From assembly GCA_000565255.1 (NCBI GenBank), contig ASRH01000009.1:1-34084 (forward strand): a stretch of DNA of 34,084 nt, written 5' to 3'. Positions within the stretch are counted from its first letter, which is position 1, and each line of letters starts with the position of its first letter. The notes below the pieces were generated by a model. The model was not told where the DNA came from. It saw only the letters and a list, made by a program, of their open reading frames with translations, and made no database searches. This document shows positions 9,174-18,722 of the stretch, in pieces. Made by a program: the position numbers and the translations under genes. Source of the stretch: Candidatus Aramenus sulfurataquae (GTDB lineage Archaea > Thermoproteota > Thermoprotei_A > Sulfolobales > Sulfolobaceae).

Positions 9174-10115
9174 TCAGTATAGGAAACATGCGACGTAGTG
9201 GTCATTAGATTCACCGGTTAGCTCTGGCTCCTTTTCCTTGCAGACGTTCATGGCGAAGGGACACCTAGGATAGTACCTGCAACCCTTGCCGTTATACGGT
9301 TCCACCTCTTCCCTTACCTCTGTAGAGAACAGCGTGCTCCTCCCAGATGGGTCAGGCAAGGGCACTGCAGATATTAGCGCCTTGGTGTAAGGATGTAATG
9401 GGTGGTCAAGGACTTCGTCTGTGGGTCCGCTCTCTATTACCTTCCCTTGGTACATTACGTATATGTTGCTTGCAATATAGCCTATTGTGGAGATGTCGTG
9501 GGTAATCATCAAGACGCTTTTTCCCTTCTCCTCTTTCAACTTCTGGAAAATATCGAGAATCCCAGCCCTAATTGACATGTCCAACATGGAGACCGGTTCG
9601 TCAGCTACTATAAAGCTTGGGTCTAGAACAAGCGCCCTGGCAATTGCCACCCTCTGCAGTTGCCCACCGGAGAGCTGGTTTGGTAGGGAGTTAGCGTACT
9701 CCTCCTCTGGCGTGAGTCCCACTTCCCTTAAGGCGTTCATTACCATCTCCCTTTCTTCCTTTTCGTTCTTTGCCAGTTTATGCACCCTTATGCCCTCAGC
9801 AATTATGTCGTATACCTTCATCCTTATGTCCACTGCCTCATATGGGTTCTGGAATATTATTTGGTTCTGCCTTCTGAACTCCTTCTCCTCTTTTCCCTTT
9901 AGCTTTGAAACGTCTTTCCCGTTCCACAGCACCTTTCCTGCAGTGGGCCTCTGCAGGTTCAAAATAGTCCTCCCAAGCGTAGTTTTCCCGCTGCCAGATT
10001 CGCCCACTAACCCGACTATCTCCTTCTCTTTGATCTTAATGTTGACCCCGTCTACTGCCTTAACTACCACGTCCCTTGACTTGAAGTAAACCTTGAGGTT
10101 CTGCGTCTCTATCAT
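9174..10115 (-). CDS. dppF: Dipeptide/oligopeptide ABC transporter ATPase, DppF/OppF type
   Basis: This 313-residue cytoplasmic nucleotide-binding subunit pairs with DppD. Walker A is GESGSGKTT (about residues 38-46), the ABC signature is LSGGQLQR, Walker B with the catalytic Glu is [12 protein letters not shown], and the switch His is in MITHD. The C-terminus carries the oligopeptide-transporter extension with four cysteines in [14 protein letters not shown]...VACF. In related peptide-transporter ATPases this motif can bind a [4Fe-4S] cluster. The ATG overlaps the dppD stop (ATGA). Substrate class is inferred from family; Sulfolobales Dpp/Opp-type transporters may also move oligosaccharides. 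Confidence 0.9.
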
Positions 10116-11098
10116 TTCCTGCTCACCGCGTGACAGGCTACGTAATGGAACCCCTCTACCTTTGTCAGCTCAGGTTCCTTCTCTCTGCAGATGGGCATGG
10201 CTATTGGGCACCTAGGGGCAAACCTACAGCCTTTCGGTGGGTTCTCTAGGTCCGGAGGATAGCCAGGAACTGAGACGAGCTTCTTCTTTTTCCTCAACCT
10301 CAAGTCTGGAATGGCGTCAATCAAGGCCCTTGTGTAGGGGTGGAGTGGGTTCCTGAAGATCTTTTCCACGTCCCCAAACTCCACTACTTTTCCCGCGTAC
10401 ATAATGAGAACGCTGTCGCTTATGTTAGCTAAGAGCGCTAGGTCATGAGTTACGAACATCATGCTAAACTTCCTACTCTCCTGGAGGTCCTTCATCATCT
10501 TCAGTATCTTAGCTTGGGTTATGACGTCGAGGGCAGTGGTGGCCTCGTCCGAGACAACCATGGACGGGTTCAACAGCAGAGCCATCGCAATCACTACCCT
10601 CTGCCTTTGTCCCCCGGAGAGTTCGTGGGGAAACATGTCTGCTTTTTCCGGAGGCACGCCGACGCTCTCCAGCGCCTTATATATTCTCTCCATGGCCTCT
10701 GCCTTTGAGACGTCCTCGTGCTCCATTATAGTTTCCATCATCTGGTCCTTTACCTTGTACACAGGGTCAAGTACGTCCATGGAAGCTTGGGGTATGTAGG
10801 CTATGTCCTTCCAGACAATGGTCTTCCTAAAGGTCTTAAGATCCATGGAAAGTATGTCCTGTCCCTTGAATTTTACTTCTCCAGATACTACTTGCGCGTT
10901 CCTCGGAAGCACCCTAAATATTGTAGAGACCAGCGTTGACTTACCGCATCCGGACTCCCCTGCTACCCCGAGAACCTTTGCTCTGTCCACGAAGAGAGAT
11001 ACGTCGTCCACAGCTTTGACACTTCCTCTCTTGGTCTTATAGTACGTCCTAAGGGAGTCCACCTTTAGGATTACGTCCGTGGATTCCTCAAAAATCAC
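10112..11098 (-). CDS. dppD: Dipeptide/oligopeptide ABC transporter ATPase, DppD/OppD type
   Basis: This 328-residue partner of DppF forms the heterodimeric motor of the importer. It shows Walker A GESGCGKST, a Q-loop in IAYIPQASMDVLDP, signature LSGGQRQRV, Walker B MVVSDEATTALDV and the switch His in FVTHDLALLA. The C-terminal oligopeptide-transporter extension again has four Cys in CRFAPRCPIAMPIC...VACH. The start is a GTG at 11098, one base after the dppC stop, and the 3' end overlaps dppF by four bases, so translation is coupled. All family motifs are intact. Confidence 0.9.
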   Translation of the reverse strand: MIFEESTDVILKVDSLRTYYKTKRGSVKAVDDVSLFVDRAKVLGVAGESGCGKSTLVSTIFRVLPRNAQVVSGEVKFKGQDILSMDLKTFRKTIVWKDIAYIPQASMDVLDPVYKVKDQMMETIMEHEDVSKAEAMERIYKALESVGVPPEKADMFPHELSGGQRQRVVIAMALLLNPSMVVSDEATTALDVITQAKILKMMKDLQESRKFSMMFVTHDLALLANISDSVLIMYAGKVVEFGDVEKIFRNPLHPYTRALIDAIPDLRLRKKKKLVSVPGYPPDLENPPKGCRFAPRCPIAMPICREKEPELTKVEGFHYVACHAVSRK

Positions 11099-11099
11099 G

Positions 11100-12527
11100 T
11101 TACTCGCCCCTCAACTTGTAAGGACTTAGCACGTCGAGCATGGCAGAGCCGAAGAAGTAAAACGCCGTGCTTAGCAGGACTATTCCTATCCCAGGCGGAA
11201 GTACCCACCACCACGCGAAACCGTTAATAAAGGACACGTTATACGTGGCAAAGCCCAACATGTTTCCCCACGTGGGAAATCCCGTTATTCCCAATCCCAG
11301 GAAGTCTAGGCCAGACTCCGCTAAAATTACTCCAGGAACGTCGTAGGCCAACTGGGCGAAGAGTATGCCCATCAAGTTAGGAAGGATATGCCTAAACAAT
11401 ATCCTCAAGTTTCCCTCTCCTAGGGCCTTCGCGGCCTCCACGAAAGTCCTGCCCTTTAAAGAGAGCGTCTGTCCCCTTATAATCTTGGCTGTGCCGGGCC
11501 ACGATAGCAAGGATATTATTAGTAGTATAAGTATGGGCTTATTCACGTTAACTATGGTCCCAGTTACGTCAAATATGCTTATTAACACAACGAGCAATGG
11601 AAGCCCAGGTATCAAGAGGAAGAAGTCAGTCAGAGCGTTTAGGGAAAGGTCAGTAAACCCTCCAACGTAACCTGCCAGCAAGCCTATGAATAGGCCTATT
11701 CCTATTATTAATGCTGATGCCAGGAGAGATAGGTATAAGTCAAACCTAGCTCCATAGACGAACTCCGCAAATACGCTAGCCCCGTTGTCGTCCGTGCCTA
11801 GCTTACCGTATACGTATCCCAAGGAACTATAGGAAGGCAGCGACATGACGAATACTTCCTTAGAGCTTCCAGTGTTCTCAAAGGAAACCGTGACGTTGTA
11901 GGTTCCAGGCTTTGGAAGCGCGTAAGATGGAAACTCGTAGGCAGCTAGAGGTTGTTCAGATAGTGGTAGCTCAGAGGCAAAGGGGGAGTTTGCTGGAGAT
12001 ATATACTTTGAGTCAAATACCACGCTGTTTACCTTGCCGGGGGATATTGAAACTGCTGGCTCCACGGGGAAGGGCACAGGGCAAAGTTCCATTGCATACA
12101 AGCCGTTGAAGTATAAGTTTACGACAAAGCTGGTTGTGCTAGGCGTTAAGAGCTTAAACGATACAACCACGTCGTACGGGTGGCTCCAGTTCCACTTAAA
12201 AGGAAACGATACGTTAACGGTTTGCCCTGGTGGAACTACCACCTTAATATAGGACGCGTTTACCGCCGTTACGTAAGAGCTATCAGAGGAGACGTACTTC
12301 GTAAAGGTGAATGACACATCTGGAGGAAGTTCCTTGTACTGTGGAAAAATCGTTGCCCAAGAAGGGACGGCGTATGGGGCTGCCACATACTGTTGGGAGG
12401 GCAAATAGGGGTTACTATAAGTGGTCAGCGCTGGAGCGGCTACTGCTAAAATTGAGAAAAACCCAATTATTATGATCGAGAATATGAAGGACTTCCTCGA
12501 TAGCAGGTCCTTAATGACTTTATTCAT
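11100..12527 (-). CDS. dppC: ABC transporter permease DppC with extra extracytoplasmic domain
   Basis: This membrane subunit forms the channel with DppB. At 475 residues it is much longer than ordinary DppC/OppC (about 280-320). After TM1 (about 15-33) comes a stretch of some 180-200 residues, rich in Ser, Thr, Val, Pro and Asn with several N-x-S/T sites and alternating beta-like patterns. The normal family sequence then resumes at KLGTDDNGASVFAEFVYGARFDL near residue 240. The EAA loop that docks the ATPases is visible (EAAKALGEGNLRILFRHILPN). The start overlaps dppB by four bases (ATGA). The inserted segment should face outside, where it could contact the binding protein or substrate; that role is inference. 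Confidence 0.88.
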   Translation of the reverse strand: MNKVIKDLLSRKSFIFSIIIIGFFSILAVAAPALTTYSNPYLPSQQYVAAPYAVPSWATIFPQYKELPPDVSFTFTKYVSSDSSYVTAVNASYIKVVVPPGQTVNVSFPFKWNWSHPYDVVVSFKLLTPSTTSFVVNLYFNGLYAMELCPVPFPVEPAVSISPGKVNSVVFDSKYISPANSPFASELPLSEQPLAAYEFPSYALPKPGTYNVTVSFENTGSSKEVFVMSLPSYSSLGYVYGKLGTDDNGASVFAEFVYGARFDLYLSLLASALIIGIGLFIGLLAGYVGGFTDLSLNALTDFFLLIPGLPLLVVLISIFDVTGTIVNVNKPILILLIISLLSWPGTAKIIRGQTLSLKGRTFVEAAKALGEGNLRILFRHILPNLMGILFAQLAYDVPGVILAESGLDFLGLGITGFPTWGNMLGFATYNVSFINGFAWWWVLPPGIGIVLLSTAFYFFGSAMLDVLSPYKLRGE

Positions 12528-13579
12528 TCGTACTTCACCCTAGGATCTATTAGAGGGTATATGAGGTCTAACGCCAGTAGTATAACCACTGCAAACAAGC
12601 TTATAACGTAGAAGTCGCCCTCTAGGAGGGGAATGTCTAAGTTCTCTGCGGCGGACACCAAAAGCCTTCCCAACCCGGGGATGTTAAACACGTCCTCAAT
12701 GAACACTACCCCGGCAAATAGGAAGGCAAGGTCTATTCCAACCCTTGTAAACACGGGTATTATAGCGTTCCTCGTCACGTGTTTGTAAAATATCTTTCTG
12801 TCGCTGATCCCCCTTGCTCTCAAGTAGTTGACGAAGTTGCTACCCATGAGCTCTACACCGTTGTTCCTGAAGAGGATATTCCTGACCCCATAGCTTACTA
12901 CCGTGAGGAATAGGATAGGGAGAGTGAGGAACTTTAACAGGCTAGCCCAGTAAGCGAAACCATGTAACGTCACTCCGTTCCTGGTTATAGCCTCGGCTAT
13001 GTTCGTCGGAAATATGTTTAGGTAGAAACCGAACACGTAAAGTACGATCTCCCCTAGCCAGAAAGATGGAATAAAGTAAGTCATTATCGCCGTAAAGCTC
13101 ACGATGCTGTCTCCTATCTTGCCTTGTCTTGATATAGAGTAGAGGCCCAGCACCACCGCCAGAACGGTGCTCAATAACAGACTGGGGATGACCAGAAGGG
13201 CGGTAACAGGAAACCTCTGCTCTATCAAGTTTAGCACAGGTTCGTCGTAGTGCATCGATATACCTAAGTGAAAGGTCAAAAGGGACTCAATGTAAACGAA
13301 GAACCTCTCCTGTAGAGGTAGGTTTAGCCCGAACTGTCTGTCAATGGCCTGCACGAGCTCGCTCCTGGGAAGACCCTTATAGGAAAGCGGGACGTAAAGC
13401 TCGGCTACGTTTATATGGTAAAGGGTGGGTAAGACTTGAAAGACAAAGAAGTTGAACACGAGGATCCCAAACAACAAGACTAACCTCTCGGCTATTCTCT
13501 TCAATAGGTACCTCTTTAGACCGGTTATGTGGAACCTGCCCCTGATCACGCTTTTCTCAGAGGTAGCCGTAGAGCTCAT
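12524..13579 (-). CDS. dppB: ABC transporter permease DppB
   Basis: This 351-residue first gene of the dppBCDF operon is a six-helix permease. TM1 is at about residues 28-52, followed by the usual external loop (GLNLPLQERFFVYIESLLTFHLGISMHY) and the BPD_transp_1 core. The EAA-like loop (YLRARGISDRKIFYKHVTRNAIIP) contacts the ATPases. A slightly long polar N-terminus (about 25 residues) precedes TM1. The ATG at 13579 lies about 35 bp from the centre of a strong TATA box at 13608-13620, so the leader is only about 8 nt. All family landmarks are present. Confidence 0.9.
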   Translation of the reverse strand: MSSTATSEKSVIRGRFHITGLKRYLLKRIAERLVLLFGILVFNFFVFQVLPTLYHINVAELYVPLSYKGLPRSELVQAIDRQFGLNLPLQERFFVYIESLLTFHLGISMHYDEPVLNLIEQRFPVTALLVIPSLLLSTVLAVVLGLYSISRQGKIGDSIVSFTAIMTYFIPSFWLGEIVLYVFGFYLNIFPTNIAEAITRNGVTLHGFAYWASLLKFLTLPILFLTVVSYGVRNILFRNNGVELMGSNFVNYLRARGISDRKIFYKHVTRNAIIPVFTRVGIDLAFLFAGVVFIEDVFNIPGLGRLLVSAAENLDIPLLEGDFYVISLFAVVILLALDLIYPLIDPRVKYE

Positions 13580-13981: not shown

Positions 13982-15157
13982 ATGCCTAAACCGGGGAGAA
14001 GACAAAGGAAATCGCGTAAACATAAGGAGTACCTTATCGTGGTAGCCCTAATAGTGGTGGCCGTTGCCTTTTATTTATACTACAGTTCAACATCTCTCTT
14101 TAACGTCCCTGTTGTTAAGGCGATGTCCGGCACGTACACGCTGAACGACGTGGTAGAGGTAAACGGGAACGTTGTGGCCTTCGCTGGATCCTCTCAGTCC
14201 AACAACATCTCCTACGGGGTGGCGGGAGAGTTCTTCATTCAGAACTCCTCTTACTCCTTCTTTAACCTAGGGGACTACTTCCAGAATGGGACGATATACT
14301 CGATTGCGTACAACGGTTCGGCTTTCCTCTTAGCCGGGGCCCAGTACATAAGGGAGGGAAACGTAAGCGTCCTTCAGCCTGAAGTAGCACTCTATGCAGA
14401 TGGCAAGGCCATCAACGTCTCGCAATTGATACCTAGCTTCTACACCCCAGGCCAAGCGTACGTGGCAGCGTGGACTGGGAAGTACTGGCTAGTAGGAGGG
14501 AGCGCGCTCGTTATAGAGGGCACAGCCCAATATAACGTGCCTTTCCTAGTAAAGGTATTCCCCAACTTAACCTCCGTTGACCTGACCTCAAGGTTGCCTG
14601 CCTTCTTTTACAGTCCGCTCAGCGTAGGTACAGGGGTATACGCCTTGTCCTCCCAAGGAGGTCAGTTTGCAGTGGGCGGGAGCCATCTTTTCAACTACAC
14701 TTTCGCTGTCTTCAACGGCACGTCTTTTGTGGACTCCTTGGATGGAGTCGGCTTAATTCTGACAGTTGCCAATTCCCCTGATGGCTGGCTAATAGGGGGT
14801 TTCAACTACAGCTCTAAACCAGACGTGACGTTAACATTGTTAGGCATAGTAAACGGAAGCGGCGTACACTTCATTGACTTGAAATACGCTGTAGGAGTTG
14901 TGGTAGCTGTAGGCTACGGCGACGGCGAGTACGTGGTCTCCGTTAGGATACCCTTAATAAATGAGGCGTCTGGAACCGTTTCAGAGGAGGGAATAGTGCT
15001 TATGGGGAAGACTCCTACCTCCCTTTCTGAGGTCTACGCTGGGATTAACGTCAGCGTAAACTCGTTGGCCTTGGCTGGAGACCACGTCGTAGGAGTAGGA
15101 TATAAAGTTAGCAACCAAGTGAGAGAGGGGATCATAATAGTCCTCAGAGTGACGTGA
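13982..15157 (+). CDS. Membrane-anchored seven-repeat (propeller-like) surface protein next to Dpp transporter
   Basis: This 391-residue protein has a very basic cytoplasmic N-terminus (PGRRQRKSRKHK), one membrane anchor at about 17-34 and an external domain to the end with many N-x-S/T sites. Seven weak repeats of the form 'short strand, polar turn with Gly, hydrophobic strand, Gly-Gly/Ala-Gly' are visible at about residues 57-70, 106-120, 160-173, 219-233, 259-273, 307-320 and 359-373. Examples are GSAFLLAGA, GKYWLVGGS, GGQFAVGGS and DGWLIGGF. The spacing of 40-59 residues is what a seven-bladed beta-propeller would give. No enzyme motif was seen. It lies between the divergent permease operon and the binding-protein gene, so a role at the outer face of the transporter is inferred. 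Confidence 0.75.
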   Translation: MPKPGRRQRKSRKHKEYLIVVALIVVAVAFYLYYSSTSLFNVPVVKAMSGTYTLNDVVEVNGNVVAFAGSSQSNNISYGVAGEFFIQNSSYSFFNLGDYFQNGTIYSIAYNGSAFLLAGAQYIREGNVSVLQPEVALYADGKAINVSQLIPSFYTPGQAYVAAWTGKYWLVGGSALVIEGTAQYNVPFLVKVFPNLTSVDLTSRLPAFFYSPLSVGTGVYALSSQGGQFAVGGSHLFNYTFAVFNGTSFVDSLDGVGLILTVANSPDGWLIGGFNYSSKPDVTLTLLGIVNGSGVHFIDLKYAVGVVVAVGYGDGEYVVSVRIPLINEASGTVSEEGIVLMGKTPTSLSEVYAGINVSVNSLALAGDHVVGVGYKVSNQVREGIIIVLRVT

Positions 15158-15365: not shown

Positions 15366-17651
15366 ATGAGAAAACTAACCTTAATAATAGGTATTTCACT
15401 AGTTCTAGGATTTCTAGTAGCCATACCAATTCAAACCTCAGGTTTCGCTATAGCTAACTTTAACGCTCCCGTTCTGACCCCATCACAAGTGATATACAAC
15501 GAGCCTTGGGTCGGCACAATCGTCTTCACTTACGCCTACAGCACACACACAGACGAGTTCAACGCCCTCTTGCACGGTAAGGTGGACTTCATTACCCTCA
15601 CACATGTCTCGGAAATCCAAGAACTCGAGAAGGCTAACACCACAGCGTTCCTTGCGATAGCCCCTGCAGAGAGCTTTGGGCAAGTAGCTTTCGCATTTGG
15701 AAACAACTTGACCGCCAACTTGTACTTTAGGTACGCAATAGCGTCCCTCATAAACCCGCAGAACGTGACCTCTTACGTCCTGGATAACGGCGTATTAGGA
15801 GTTGATGAGCCGTTCTTCGTTAACCCGAACCTAGCGGTGTACAAGCAGTGGTTCAACCCACAAGTAGAGTCCTACTACCAGCAGTACGAGTCTTACAACT
15901 TGACGAGGGCAGTTATGTATTTAGAGAAAGTCCCAGGGATAACTCACGTCAATGGCCAGTGGTACTACGACGGGCAACCACTGAAGCTAACCTTCTACTA
16001 CACTTACCCACCAGAGACCCTGCTGAAGTTCGCCAACCTCCTGAAGGCATCCGCAGCAGCGATTAACTTAACCATAGTGCCCGTATCTGAGACTTTTGCC
16101 ACGCTGATAACCCAAGCGACAACTCCTCCGTTCAACGACTTTAACTTGACCACTTTCGGCTGGATAAGCTTAGGGCCTTTCCCCAACTCCTGGATGAACG
16201 GTATATACACTAGTCCAGGCAACACGGGTGGCTTCTCCAACTCCACCATTGACGCCGTATTACAAGAGGCCCTCAGCGCACCTACCCTAGCACAAGAGAT
16301 AAACTATACCAAGGAGGCAGAGCTGTTACTACAACAGCAACTCCCGTACGTAATATTCGTGTGGTCCAACGCAATACAAGCTGTATACTTACCGGGCTGG
16401 GCTGACTACATCTACCTAAGCTCCGGAACTCCCACGTACGCAATAAACATAATGGACGTACACCCAACCAACCAAGCACTTAACGGGACTTTCATATTCT
16501 CCTCTGTATCTAGTGACGAGCCAAGGCACATTAACATATACGCCAGCGTCTCCCTGTACGCCTTCAACACGTTAGACGAGATGTACGACTCCCTGGCAAT
16601 AACCAATTTCGCTAACGAGACCCAGCTACTTCCGTGGGTAGCTTCCTCCTGGACTATAAAGTCCCCAGTGACCATGACCTTGCCTAACGGAGAAGAGATA
16701 GTTAACGGAACTATTCTCACGGTGAACTTAGTCCACAACGACACTTGGATAGACGGCTACCCGCTCACTGCCTACGACGTTAACTTCACAGTGTGGTATT
16801 ACGATATCCCTGGAATGATGGGCACCAACACGTTCGACGGAGTTCACTTGAACTACACATACCTAGCACAGGAGGGATTTATAAACACAGACTTGTTCGG
16901 CACCATCCCAGCTCTAGTGTGGACTAACGTGACAGGGCCGTACCAGATAGTGTTCTACTTGAACTCCTCCTCTTACGTTAACGTCTACGAGACCCTATCC
17001 GAGTACCCGATAATGCCACTCCACGCCATAGGGCCAGTAAACGTAGTAACCTTGTACCATTCCACGCTAGCTCCAGAGATTTCTTCGGGGCCATACAGGT
17101 TTGTCTCATTTAACACTGAGGCGAAGACTGTAACCGTTACATACAACCCATACTACTTCAGGATAAACCCGTTGATCTTCCTGCAGAACGTGACCCAGGG
17201 ACAGACATACACGTTCACTGCTAACTTCACCTACTACACTTGGGACAACGCAACCTCCTCCTTGGTGCCCAACCAGGTGACAAATGGAACTGCTGTTATG
17301 TGGCTCAAGTACCTTAACGTATCTGGCCAAAGTTACGGCAACGCTACGGCTCCTGTGCCCATGAAGATGGTGGCGCCTGGTGTATACCAAGGTACCATTA
17401 ATACCGCAAACTTAGCCCCTGGAGTGTATGAGGTAGTGAGCAAGGTTACGTGGGACAACGGTACTAGGGAGCTCTACTACTACGGATCAATTAACGTCAC
17501 TAAGCCAGTGACAACTACTACTGTTACGACGACAGTTCCAACAACGACCACTAGCACCACTACCACGATCCCAACACTAACTATTGTTGCCGGAGTAATA
17601 ATAGTGATAATAATTGTTGCAGCAGCGGTTGTGGTGTTAAGAAGAAGATAA
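15366..17651 (+). CDS. dppA: Surface-anchored peptide-type substrate-binding protein (SBP_bac_5), apparently circularly permuted
   Basis: This 761-residue external receptor serves the adjacent DppBCDF importer. It has a signal/anchor helix at about 4-22. Residues 45-350 correspond to the usual second half of SBP_bac_5 proteins: TDEFNALLHGKVDFITL, the R-x-A-I block LYFRYAIASLIN near 120, then the C-terminal lobe ending in QQLPYVIFVW. Residues 375-605 correspond to the usual first half: FNTLDEMYDSL, LLPWVASSWTI, HNDTWIDGYPLTAYDVNFTV and SSGPYRFVSFN. A beta-rich domain follows (about 608-711), then a Thr-rich stalk (713-736), a membrane helix (738-758) and an Arg-rich end. Anchoring by stalk plus helix is typical of Sulfolobales binding proteins. 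There are dozens of N-x-S/T sites. Substrate (peptides or sugars) unknown. Confidence 0.85.
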   Translation: MRKLTLIIGISLVLGFLVAIPIQTSGFAIANFNAPVLTPSQVIYNEPWVGTIVFTYAYSTHTDEFNALLHGKVDFITLTHVSEIQELEKANTTAFLAIAPAESFGQVAFAFGNNLTANLYFRYAIASLINPQNVTSYVLDNGVLGVDEPFFVNPNLAVYKQWFNPQVESYYQQYESYNLTRAVMYLEKVPGITHVNGQWYYDGQPLKLTFYYTYPPETLLKFANLLKASAAAINLTIVPVSETFATLITQATTPPFNDFNLTTFGWISLGPFPNSWMNGIYTSPGNTGGFSNSTIDAVLQEALSAPTLAQEINYTKEAELLLQQQLPYVIFVWSNAIQAVYLPGWADYIYLSSGTPTYAINIMDVHPTNQALNGTFIFSSVSSDEPRHINIYASVSLYAFNTLDEMYDSLAITNFANETQLLPWVASSWTIKSPVTMTLPNGEEIVNGTILTVNLVHNDTWIDGYPLTAYDVNFTVWYYDIPGMMGTNTFDGVHLNYTYLAQEGFINTDLFGTIPALVWTNVTGPYQIVFYLNSSSYVNVYETLSEYPIMPLHAIGPVNVVTLYHSTLAPEISSGPYRFVSFNTEAKTVTVTYNPYYFRINPLIFLQNVTQGQTYTFTANFTYYTWDNATSSLVPNQVTNGTAVMWLKYLNVSGQSYGNATAPVPMKMVAPGVYQGTINTANLAPGVYEVVSKVTWDNGTRELYYYGSINVTKPVTTTTVTTTVPTTTTSTTTTIPTLTIVAGVIIVIIIVAAAVVVLRRR

Positions 17652-18009: not shown

Positions 18010-18417
18010 CTAACCTGTTCCTGAATTCACCCTCTCTAATACCTTCTCCGGATCCTTTACGTCCATAATTACTATTACCTTCCCATTCTCCATGACTATG
18101 TACACAGACCCCACTCCTAACCTCTTCGCAATTGGACCTTGGGAAACGAAAGCTTCTCTTAAGTTTGCCAACCTCACCCTTTTCCTGGAGGTAAATGACC
18201 TTATTTCCAGCTCTCCTCCTTCAAAGCAGTACAAGTGGCTGGTCTGCCACCATATTATCAACCCTAGAAGAGCGTACCAGATCAACACGAAAATAGCGTA
18301 GTTCAGCAGTGCCTTTATCTCCAGGAAGAGAGAAAAAACCACTAGGCCTATGGTACCCTCAACCAGTAGCCTTACCCCTGTCGGTCTCGTACAGCCAGCA
18401 GGCGACTTTCCTCCCAT
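18010..18417 (-). CDS. Small two-helix membrane protein with bacterial-PH-like domain
   Basis: Up to 135 residues. Two adjacent membrane helices (IGLVVFSLFLEIKALL and AIFVLIWYALLGLIIWW) are followed by a small beta-rich domain of about 65 residues with the pattern of bPH (DUF304-type) domains: ELEIRSFTSRKRVRLANL, then KRLGVGSVYIVM and IMDVKDPEKVLERV. Such proteins are membrane-associated with unknown biochemical role. The ATG at 18417 would overlap the ABC ATPase remnant by 59 bases and give an odd polar N-terminus. A GTG at 18342, after the remnant's stop, gives a more natural 110-residue protein. The bPH assignment is by pattern only. Confidence 0.6.
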   Translation of the reverse strand: MGGKSPAGCTRPTGVRLLVEGTIGLVVFSLFLEIKALLNYAIFVLIWYALLGLIIWWQTSHLYCFEGGELEIRSFTSRKRVRLANLREAFVSQGPIAKRLGVGSVYIVMENGKVIVIMDVKDPEKVLERVNSGTG

Positions 18418-18722
18418 TTACCTCCACCACCGGGGGTTCTTTAGTTCTACACACCTCTAAGGCAAAGGGACATCTAGGGTGAAATCTACACCCGCTTGGA
18501 GGGTTGATCAAGCTTGGGGTCTCGCCAGAGGGTGGCGAAAGTTCCTTTTTCCCGAGGTCTGGCACAGAGCTAAGCAACGCCTTAGTGTAGGGATGCATTG
18601 GCTCGGAGATCACCTCGTCGACTTTGCCCTCTTCTACTGCCTTCCCGGCTACGGCTAGCTTGTCAAATATGAAGCCTGCAATTGATATATTGTGGCATGT
18701 AGAGGAGCTCTATGTCGTCAAA
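18359..18722 (-). pseudogene. C-terminal remnant of a peptide-transporter ATPase (DppD/OppD type)
   Basis: On the minus strand, an open stretch from about 18690 to the TGA at 18359 encodes the end of an OppD/DppD ATPase. It reads HNISIAGFIFDKLAV, AGKAVEEGKVDEV, then EPMHPYTKALLSSVPD and the Cys-motif CRFHPRCPFALEVC...VACWLY. The two residues normally between 'AV' and 'AGK' are missing, and upstream of 18690 the frame breaks. Walker A, signature and Walker B are absent, so it cannot be active. It is a leftover of a second peptide-type transporter and is not a recent copy of the dppD or dppF above (the residues differ). Bases 18723-18866 hold nothing recognisable. Confidence 0.75.

Follow-up and report, generated by a model that had tools for sequence, protein, structure and literature searches.

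Substrate-binding proteins (SBPs) of cluster C, such as DppA, OppA, AppA, and NikA, belong to the SBP_bac_5 family (PF00496), whose segments follow the order N1-C1-C2, and in these normal-order systems Opp-type permease and ATPase genes lie beside the SBP gene. Rearrangements of the binding-protein fold are on record as the 'domain dislocation' described for periplasmic binding proteins (Fukami-Kobayashi 1999, as cited by PMC10601554) and in ribose-binding protein, whose halves have been permuted by engineering (PMC9815098). Searches of the open-access literature (PMC) brought up no permuted member of SBP_bac_5. Here, we analyzed a stretch of 34,084 nucleotides from Candidatus Aramenus sulfurataquae (hereafter the window), in which Opp-type permeases and ATPases are likewise encoded next to an SBP gene. 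This gene very probably encodes a naturally circularly permuted SBP of an Opp/Dpp-type ABC importer, and permuted SBP_bac_5 proteins are real and conserved and have apparently been overlooked.

Segment order and predicted fold of the window protein

The gene at 15366..17651 (+) encodes a 761-aa SBP_bac_5 binding protein that is circularly permuted, with the order C1-C2-N1 (type A), as assigned by HMMs, profile search, and an AF2 model. Its N-terminal hydrophobic signal sequence (residues ~1–27, 15366..15446, +) was read from the sequence, with a helix at residues 2–18 in the full-length model. Segment C1 (residues 47–166, 15504..15863, +; 112 bits with the C1 HMM), which carries GKVDF and YFRYAIASLIN, corresponds to the part of the canonical fold located after the 'GPY...NPyYw' block, and segment C2 (residues 213–348, 16002..16409, +; 139 bits with the C2 HMM) comprises the latter half of domain III together with the old C-terminus. 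The HMM segment limits and linker comparison place the link between the old C- and N-termini at residues ~349–377 ('...INIMDVHPTNQALNGTF', 16410..16496, +); this junction, which the first-pass annotation had put near residues 355–375, is confidently modelled in the AF2 core model. Segment N1, the old N-terminal part (residues 378–599, 16497..17162, +; 186 bits with the N1 HMM, Pfam model positions 2–142), contains the motifs LLPWVASSWTI, TWIDGYPLTAYDV, SSGPYRF, and NPYYF. The permuted core is followed by an Ig-like beta domain (residues ~612–712, 17199..17501, +), a well-predicted all-beta stretch that matched no family in the Pfam search, by a Thr-rich stalk read from the sequence (residues ~713–736, 17502..17573, +), and by a C-terminal transmembrane helix with RRR at its end (residues ~737–761, 17574..17648, +), identified in the sequence and modelled as helix 738–760 in the full-length model. 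In the profile alignment, the point at which the chain is opened, compared with normal-order proteins, falls directly after 'GPY...NPYYF', at approximately residues 205–214 of AppA/DppA. Given the published domain limits of OppA, we take this position to lie within domain I, so that the two lobe-crossing strands are left uncut.

Comparison with PF00496 (whole-protein match, E 2.1e-21, 76.9 bits against a Pfam gathering score of 32.4) revealed two stretches in exchanged order, with residues 48–286 matching model positions 147–366 and residues ~421–610 matching positions 2–142; the window protein follows the order C1-C2-N1 and not the family order N1-C1-C2. A comparison HMM, built from normal-order proteins only and run with filters off, was concordant. 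Its best domain aligned window residues 46–340 to model positions 186–469 (110 bits; total 169 bits), E. coli DppA aligned as a single domain over positions 3–476 (461 bits), and shuffled window-protein sequences stayed below 9 bits. These results bear out the swapped halves that the first-pass annotation had proposed for this ORF, with residues 40–365 aligning to the C-terminal, not the N-terminal, part of PF00496. When the first half alone was searched against Pfam (hmmscan), no match was obtained; this is apparently an effect of the HMMER filters, and the match was recovered within the whole protein and with filters off. DppA, NikA, and the protein of locus L024 aligned in a single piece to the unrotated normal-order model, as did the type A proteins L080 and L022 to the type A rotation of the model and the type B proteins, which have the order C2-N1-C1, to the type B rotation. 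The window protein, L045, and L066 still aligned in two pieces to the rotated model, and other type A proteins in one. The profile of the aligned family matched AppA (1xoc) in two stretches, profile positions 315–504 to chain residues 20–214 and positions 9–301 to residues 209–507, and the other PDB chains listed in the profile search likewise matched in two; all PDB relatives listed are of normal order.

The AF2 core model is confident (pLDDT 89.7, pTM 0.89) and was obtained with a 98-row alignment of type A proteins and fragments of normal-order and type B relatives; the earlier full-length model, from 19 close sequences only (pTM 0.30), was discarded. Foldseek comparison of the core model with the PDB returned AppA, OppA, NikA, and DppA among the best matches. 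The order-bound alignments spanned ~290–350 columns each, with a TM score of ~0.45 at best among the 50 SBPs listed, and that to AppA covered only ~320 of 575 residues, a partial coverage that should be expected of a permuted fold. Among the best PDB matches listed for type A or type B proteins (60, 50, and 60), no permuted chain was found.

Distribution and origins of the permuted proteins

A search for Sulfolobales homologues, which the first-pass annotation had suggested, matched the window protein in 24 of 31 Sulfolobaceae genomes and yielded relatives in other Sulfolobales families. With a type A query, colinear relatives were found in approximately 30 further genomes of the phylum sample, as counted from the listed ranges. 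The segment order is kept from 94% down to ~35% identity and recurs in complete, single-contig genomes as well as in named Metallosphaera records. The window reading frame has no internal stop, its dN/dS to the nearest species is 0.12, and the gene is intact and under purifying selection. At least four Sulfolobaceae genomes, three of them without the window protein, hold a divergent ~900-aa relative (L190–L193) heading a full OppBCDF cluster; profile comparison indicated that these relatives are colinear with type A across the junction, as are the ~1000-aa relatives of other Sulfolobales families (L103–L108). Two damaged type A copies were also noted, L035:4568-6550 (+) and L092:5343-7553 (+), one without the N-terminal part and one split by an in-frame TAG.

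Classification of the proteins at the fetched loci by separate N1, C1, and C2 HMMs gave 47 of type A (C1-C2-N1), 10 of type B (C2-N1-C1), and 51 of normal order, nearly all of them with each segment once; unrotated relatives are represented by these 51 ORFs and by E. coli DppA and NikA. In type B, the cut lies within domain III, in the loop between '...DGDGI.E' and '.KPLKL'. Type B proteins are present in other archaea, including haloarchaea, and in Alphaproteobacteria, and a probe spanning the C2-N1 junction gave one-piece matches to plasmid-borne haloarchaeal and alphaproteobacterial proteins. All eight plasmid proteins examined at full length (L197–L201, L205–L207) are of type B, and where annotated they are named plainly as 'ABC transporter substrate-binding protein'. 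The plasmid type B genes with annotated neighbours mostly lie beside Opp-type genes, with L207 as the exception. The haloarchaeal and alphaproteobacterial type B proteins examined have no C-terminal anchor, so the permutation is not simply a means of moving one. The scope is wider than the first-pass annotation had taken it to be: the clade of the window protein spans the phylum, and a second permutation is found outside that clade. NCBIfam models matched the permuted proteins far under their cut-offs and in pieces, and the permutation explains such split or partial matches reported by family tools.

Mixture-model trees were built on the three segments concatenated in one common order, for a smaller set and for a larger set that includes E. 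coli DppA and NikA. Type A proteins formed one clade (support 99/97 in the smaller set and 99/95 in the larger), with three type B proteins (B1) as its sister (96/93 and 97/82, respectively). The remaining type B proteins were placed elsewhere, L099 and most haloarchaeal and alphaproteobacterial ones forming one group (99/96, larger set). On these trees, type A is the product of one event; several type A origins, suggested by two placements in FastTree, were dropped because the better mixture-model trees give one clade. Tests on the smaller set rejected a single clade of all type B proteins (p 0.007) and also one origin for everything permuted (p 0.018); on the larger set, the latter was not rejected (p 0.10). 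The linker common to A and B1 runs roughly from a 'W..LNvH' end through ~8 residues to 'GG'; in the B2 group, the linkers are longer and do not resemble it. The sister position of A and B1, together with their similar fusion linkers, suggests one fused ancestor trimmed in two ways. The origin would most likely be a tandem duplication whose outer parts were then lost, as the first-pass annotation had proposed (C1-N2); the short fusion linker fits this course, and against it no intact tandem-duplicated intermediate was found among the proteins classified.

The adjacent importer and the rival readings

Pfam analysis of the neighbouring genes identified an OppB-type permease (12524..13579, −; PF00528, PF19300), a 475-aa OppC-type permease (11100..12527, −; PF00528), an OppD-type ATPase (10112..11098, −; PF00005, oligo_HPY), and an OppF-type ATPase (9174..10115, −; PF00005, oligo_HPY). 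The SBP gene is divergent from these four genes, and their counterparts adjoin most other type A genes. Between SBP and OppB lies the gene for a 391-aa N-terminally anchored extracytoplasmic protein (13982..15157, +; Pfam and locus comparison), which matched no Pfam family over the cut-off; close relatives (L001, L196) also have it next to the SBP. An 84-aa ORF at 18359-18613 (−), which overlaps a bPH_2 ORF, looks like the C-terminal end of an Opp ATPase (oligo_HPY) and is probably a remnant.

As placed by motif position, the window OppC carries ~170 extra extracytoplasmic residues between TM helix 1 and the GTDxxG motif at residue 243. Among the other type A loci, 14 have a complete OppC beside the SBP, and in all of these the motif is located at 244–303, against 46–158 in the normal-order loci where it was found, with the single exception of L137, whose long OppC reads as an upstream extension of the ORF. 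Iterated search indicated that the OppC inserts of type A operons are mutually related, the searched pieces including the shared first TM region. A short OppC is found at L110 and L111, which are basal in type A, and at the B1 and B2 loci; the OppC domain is therefore probably later than the permutation. Since the type A loci share ancestry, the link between insert and permutation is an association and not a functional test, and it points to a possible modified importer subtype. One speculative scenario, which we consider possible but rather doubtful, is that permutation of family 5 binding proteins occurred repeatedly and independently, with two preferred cut sites, and that in type A it altered the contact between SBP and importer, the permuted SBP with its new tether evolving jointly with an added extracytoplasmic OppC domain that docks it. 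A different and longer OppC insert, of ~300 aa and with propeller-like repeats by eye, was observed beside the type B SBP at L099:3306-5075 (−).

The genomic context suggests that the window protein functions biochemically as an importer binding protein. In the proposed arrangement, the chain would start in the domain I loop after the canonical 'GPY...NPxYW' block, run through the remaining domain I and domain III to the old C-terminus, reach the old N-terminus by way of a short linker, and end with domain II and the GPY block. The signal sequence would export the protein, and the Ig-like spacer, Thr-rich stalk, and C-terminal TM helix would tether it. A peptide-like ligand, as the context suggests, may be bound between the lobes and passed to the divergently transcribed OppBC-DF.

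Several other readings of the locus were weighed. An assembly, frameshift, or pseudogene artefact could be suspected from the 46 contigs of the window's assembly, but the recurrence of the order in complete genomes and named records, the uninterrupted frame, and the low dN/dS refute it, leaving it a vanishingly small probability. Scarcely more credible is an array of two complete normal-order SBP domains or a tandem repeat, which the length of some relatives (~900–1040 aa; L103–L108, L190–L193) might suggest. The window protein holds one copy each of C1, C2, and N1, in rotated order and with the old termini joined, and the long relatives match the type A profile as one continuous alignment that spans the junction; two full domains in normal order, the outcome by which the first-pass annotation could have failed, are not seen. 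Parts of two different SBP genes might instead have been fused in swapped order, giving a chimera with no true permutation. The missing tandem intermediate and the distinct B2 linkers would fit such a fusion, but type A holds together as one clade at 99% support with all three segments concatenated, and we regard a chimera as improbable.

It is also unlikely, though somewhat less so, that the permuted SBP has been uncoupled from the importer and serves instead as a receptor or sensor at the cell surface. Consistent with uncoupling, the SBP gene lies outside the permease operon and divergent from it, with the 391-aa surface protein between, and where AppA has an aspartate near the 'GW...PD' block, the window protein has Asn, a single-site reading; many other type A SBPs, however, are encoded together with permease and ATPase genes on the same strand (e.g. 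L080, L082, L086, L093, L096, L190). A permuted importer SBP remains the reading that we prefer.

Comparison with known binding-protein systems

The window protein shares the three segments, the PF00496 motifs, and, as the core model predicts, probably the fold with the normal-order proteins DppA, OppA, AppA, and NikA, and differs from them in that its termini lie in a domain I loop, as its C1-C2-N1 order entails. Its signal sequence, C-terminal stalk, and TM helix resemble those of archaeal C-terminally anchored SBPs (e.g. L024, L031, L060), in which the stalk follows the canonical C-terminus, whereas the type A stalk comes after the GPY block. According to two reviews, the ATV protein p529 pulls down the S. 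solfataricus oligopeptide-binding protein SSO1273, which has been proposed as a virus receptor (PMC4124505, PMC4456609). In a Saccharolobus-like genome, a divergent ~900-aa type A SBP heads a full OppBCDF cluster (L190:8649-15676, +), and the five-gene order of this locus together with these two reviews suggests that SSO1273 (OppASs) may be this type A protein.

Domain dislocation, in which the strand order of the binding-protein fold is rearranged as it is here, reportedly denotes an ancient change of core topology between type I and type II and not a cut and rejoining within family 5. The ribose-binding protein constructs also have a permuted binding-protein fold, but they are laboratory-made and belong to another PBP class. 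The proteins described here represent natural permutation, with all three cyclic orders occurring within one large transporter-receptor family of archaea and bacteria, and offer natural material for asking how the position of the termini and the site of the tether affect SBP-importer docking and lobe closure.
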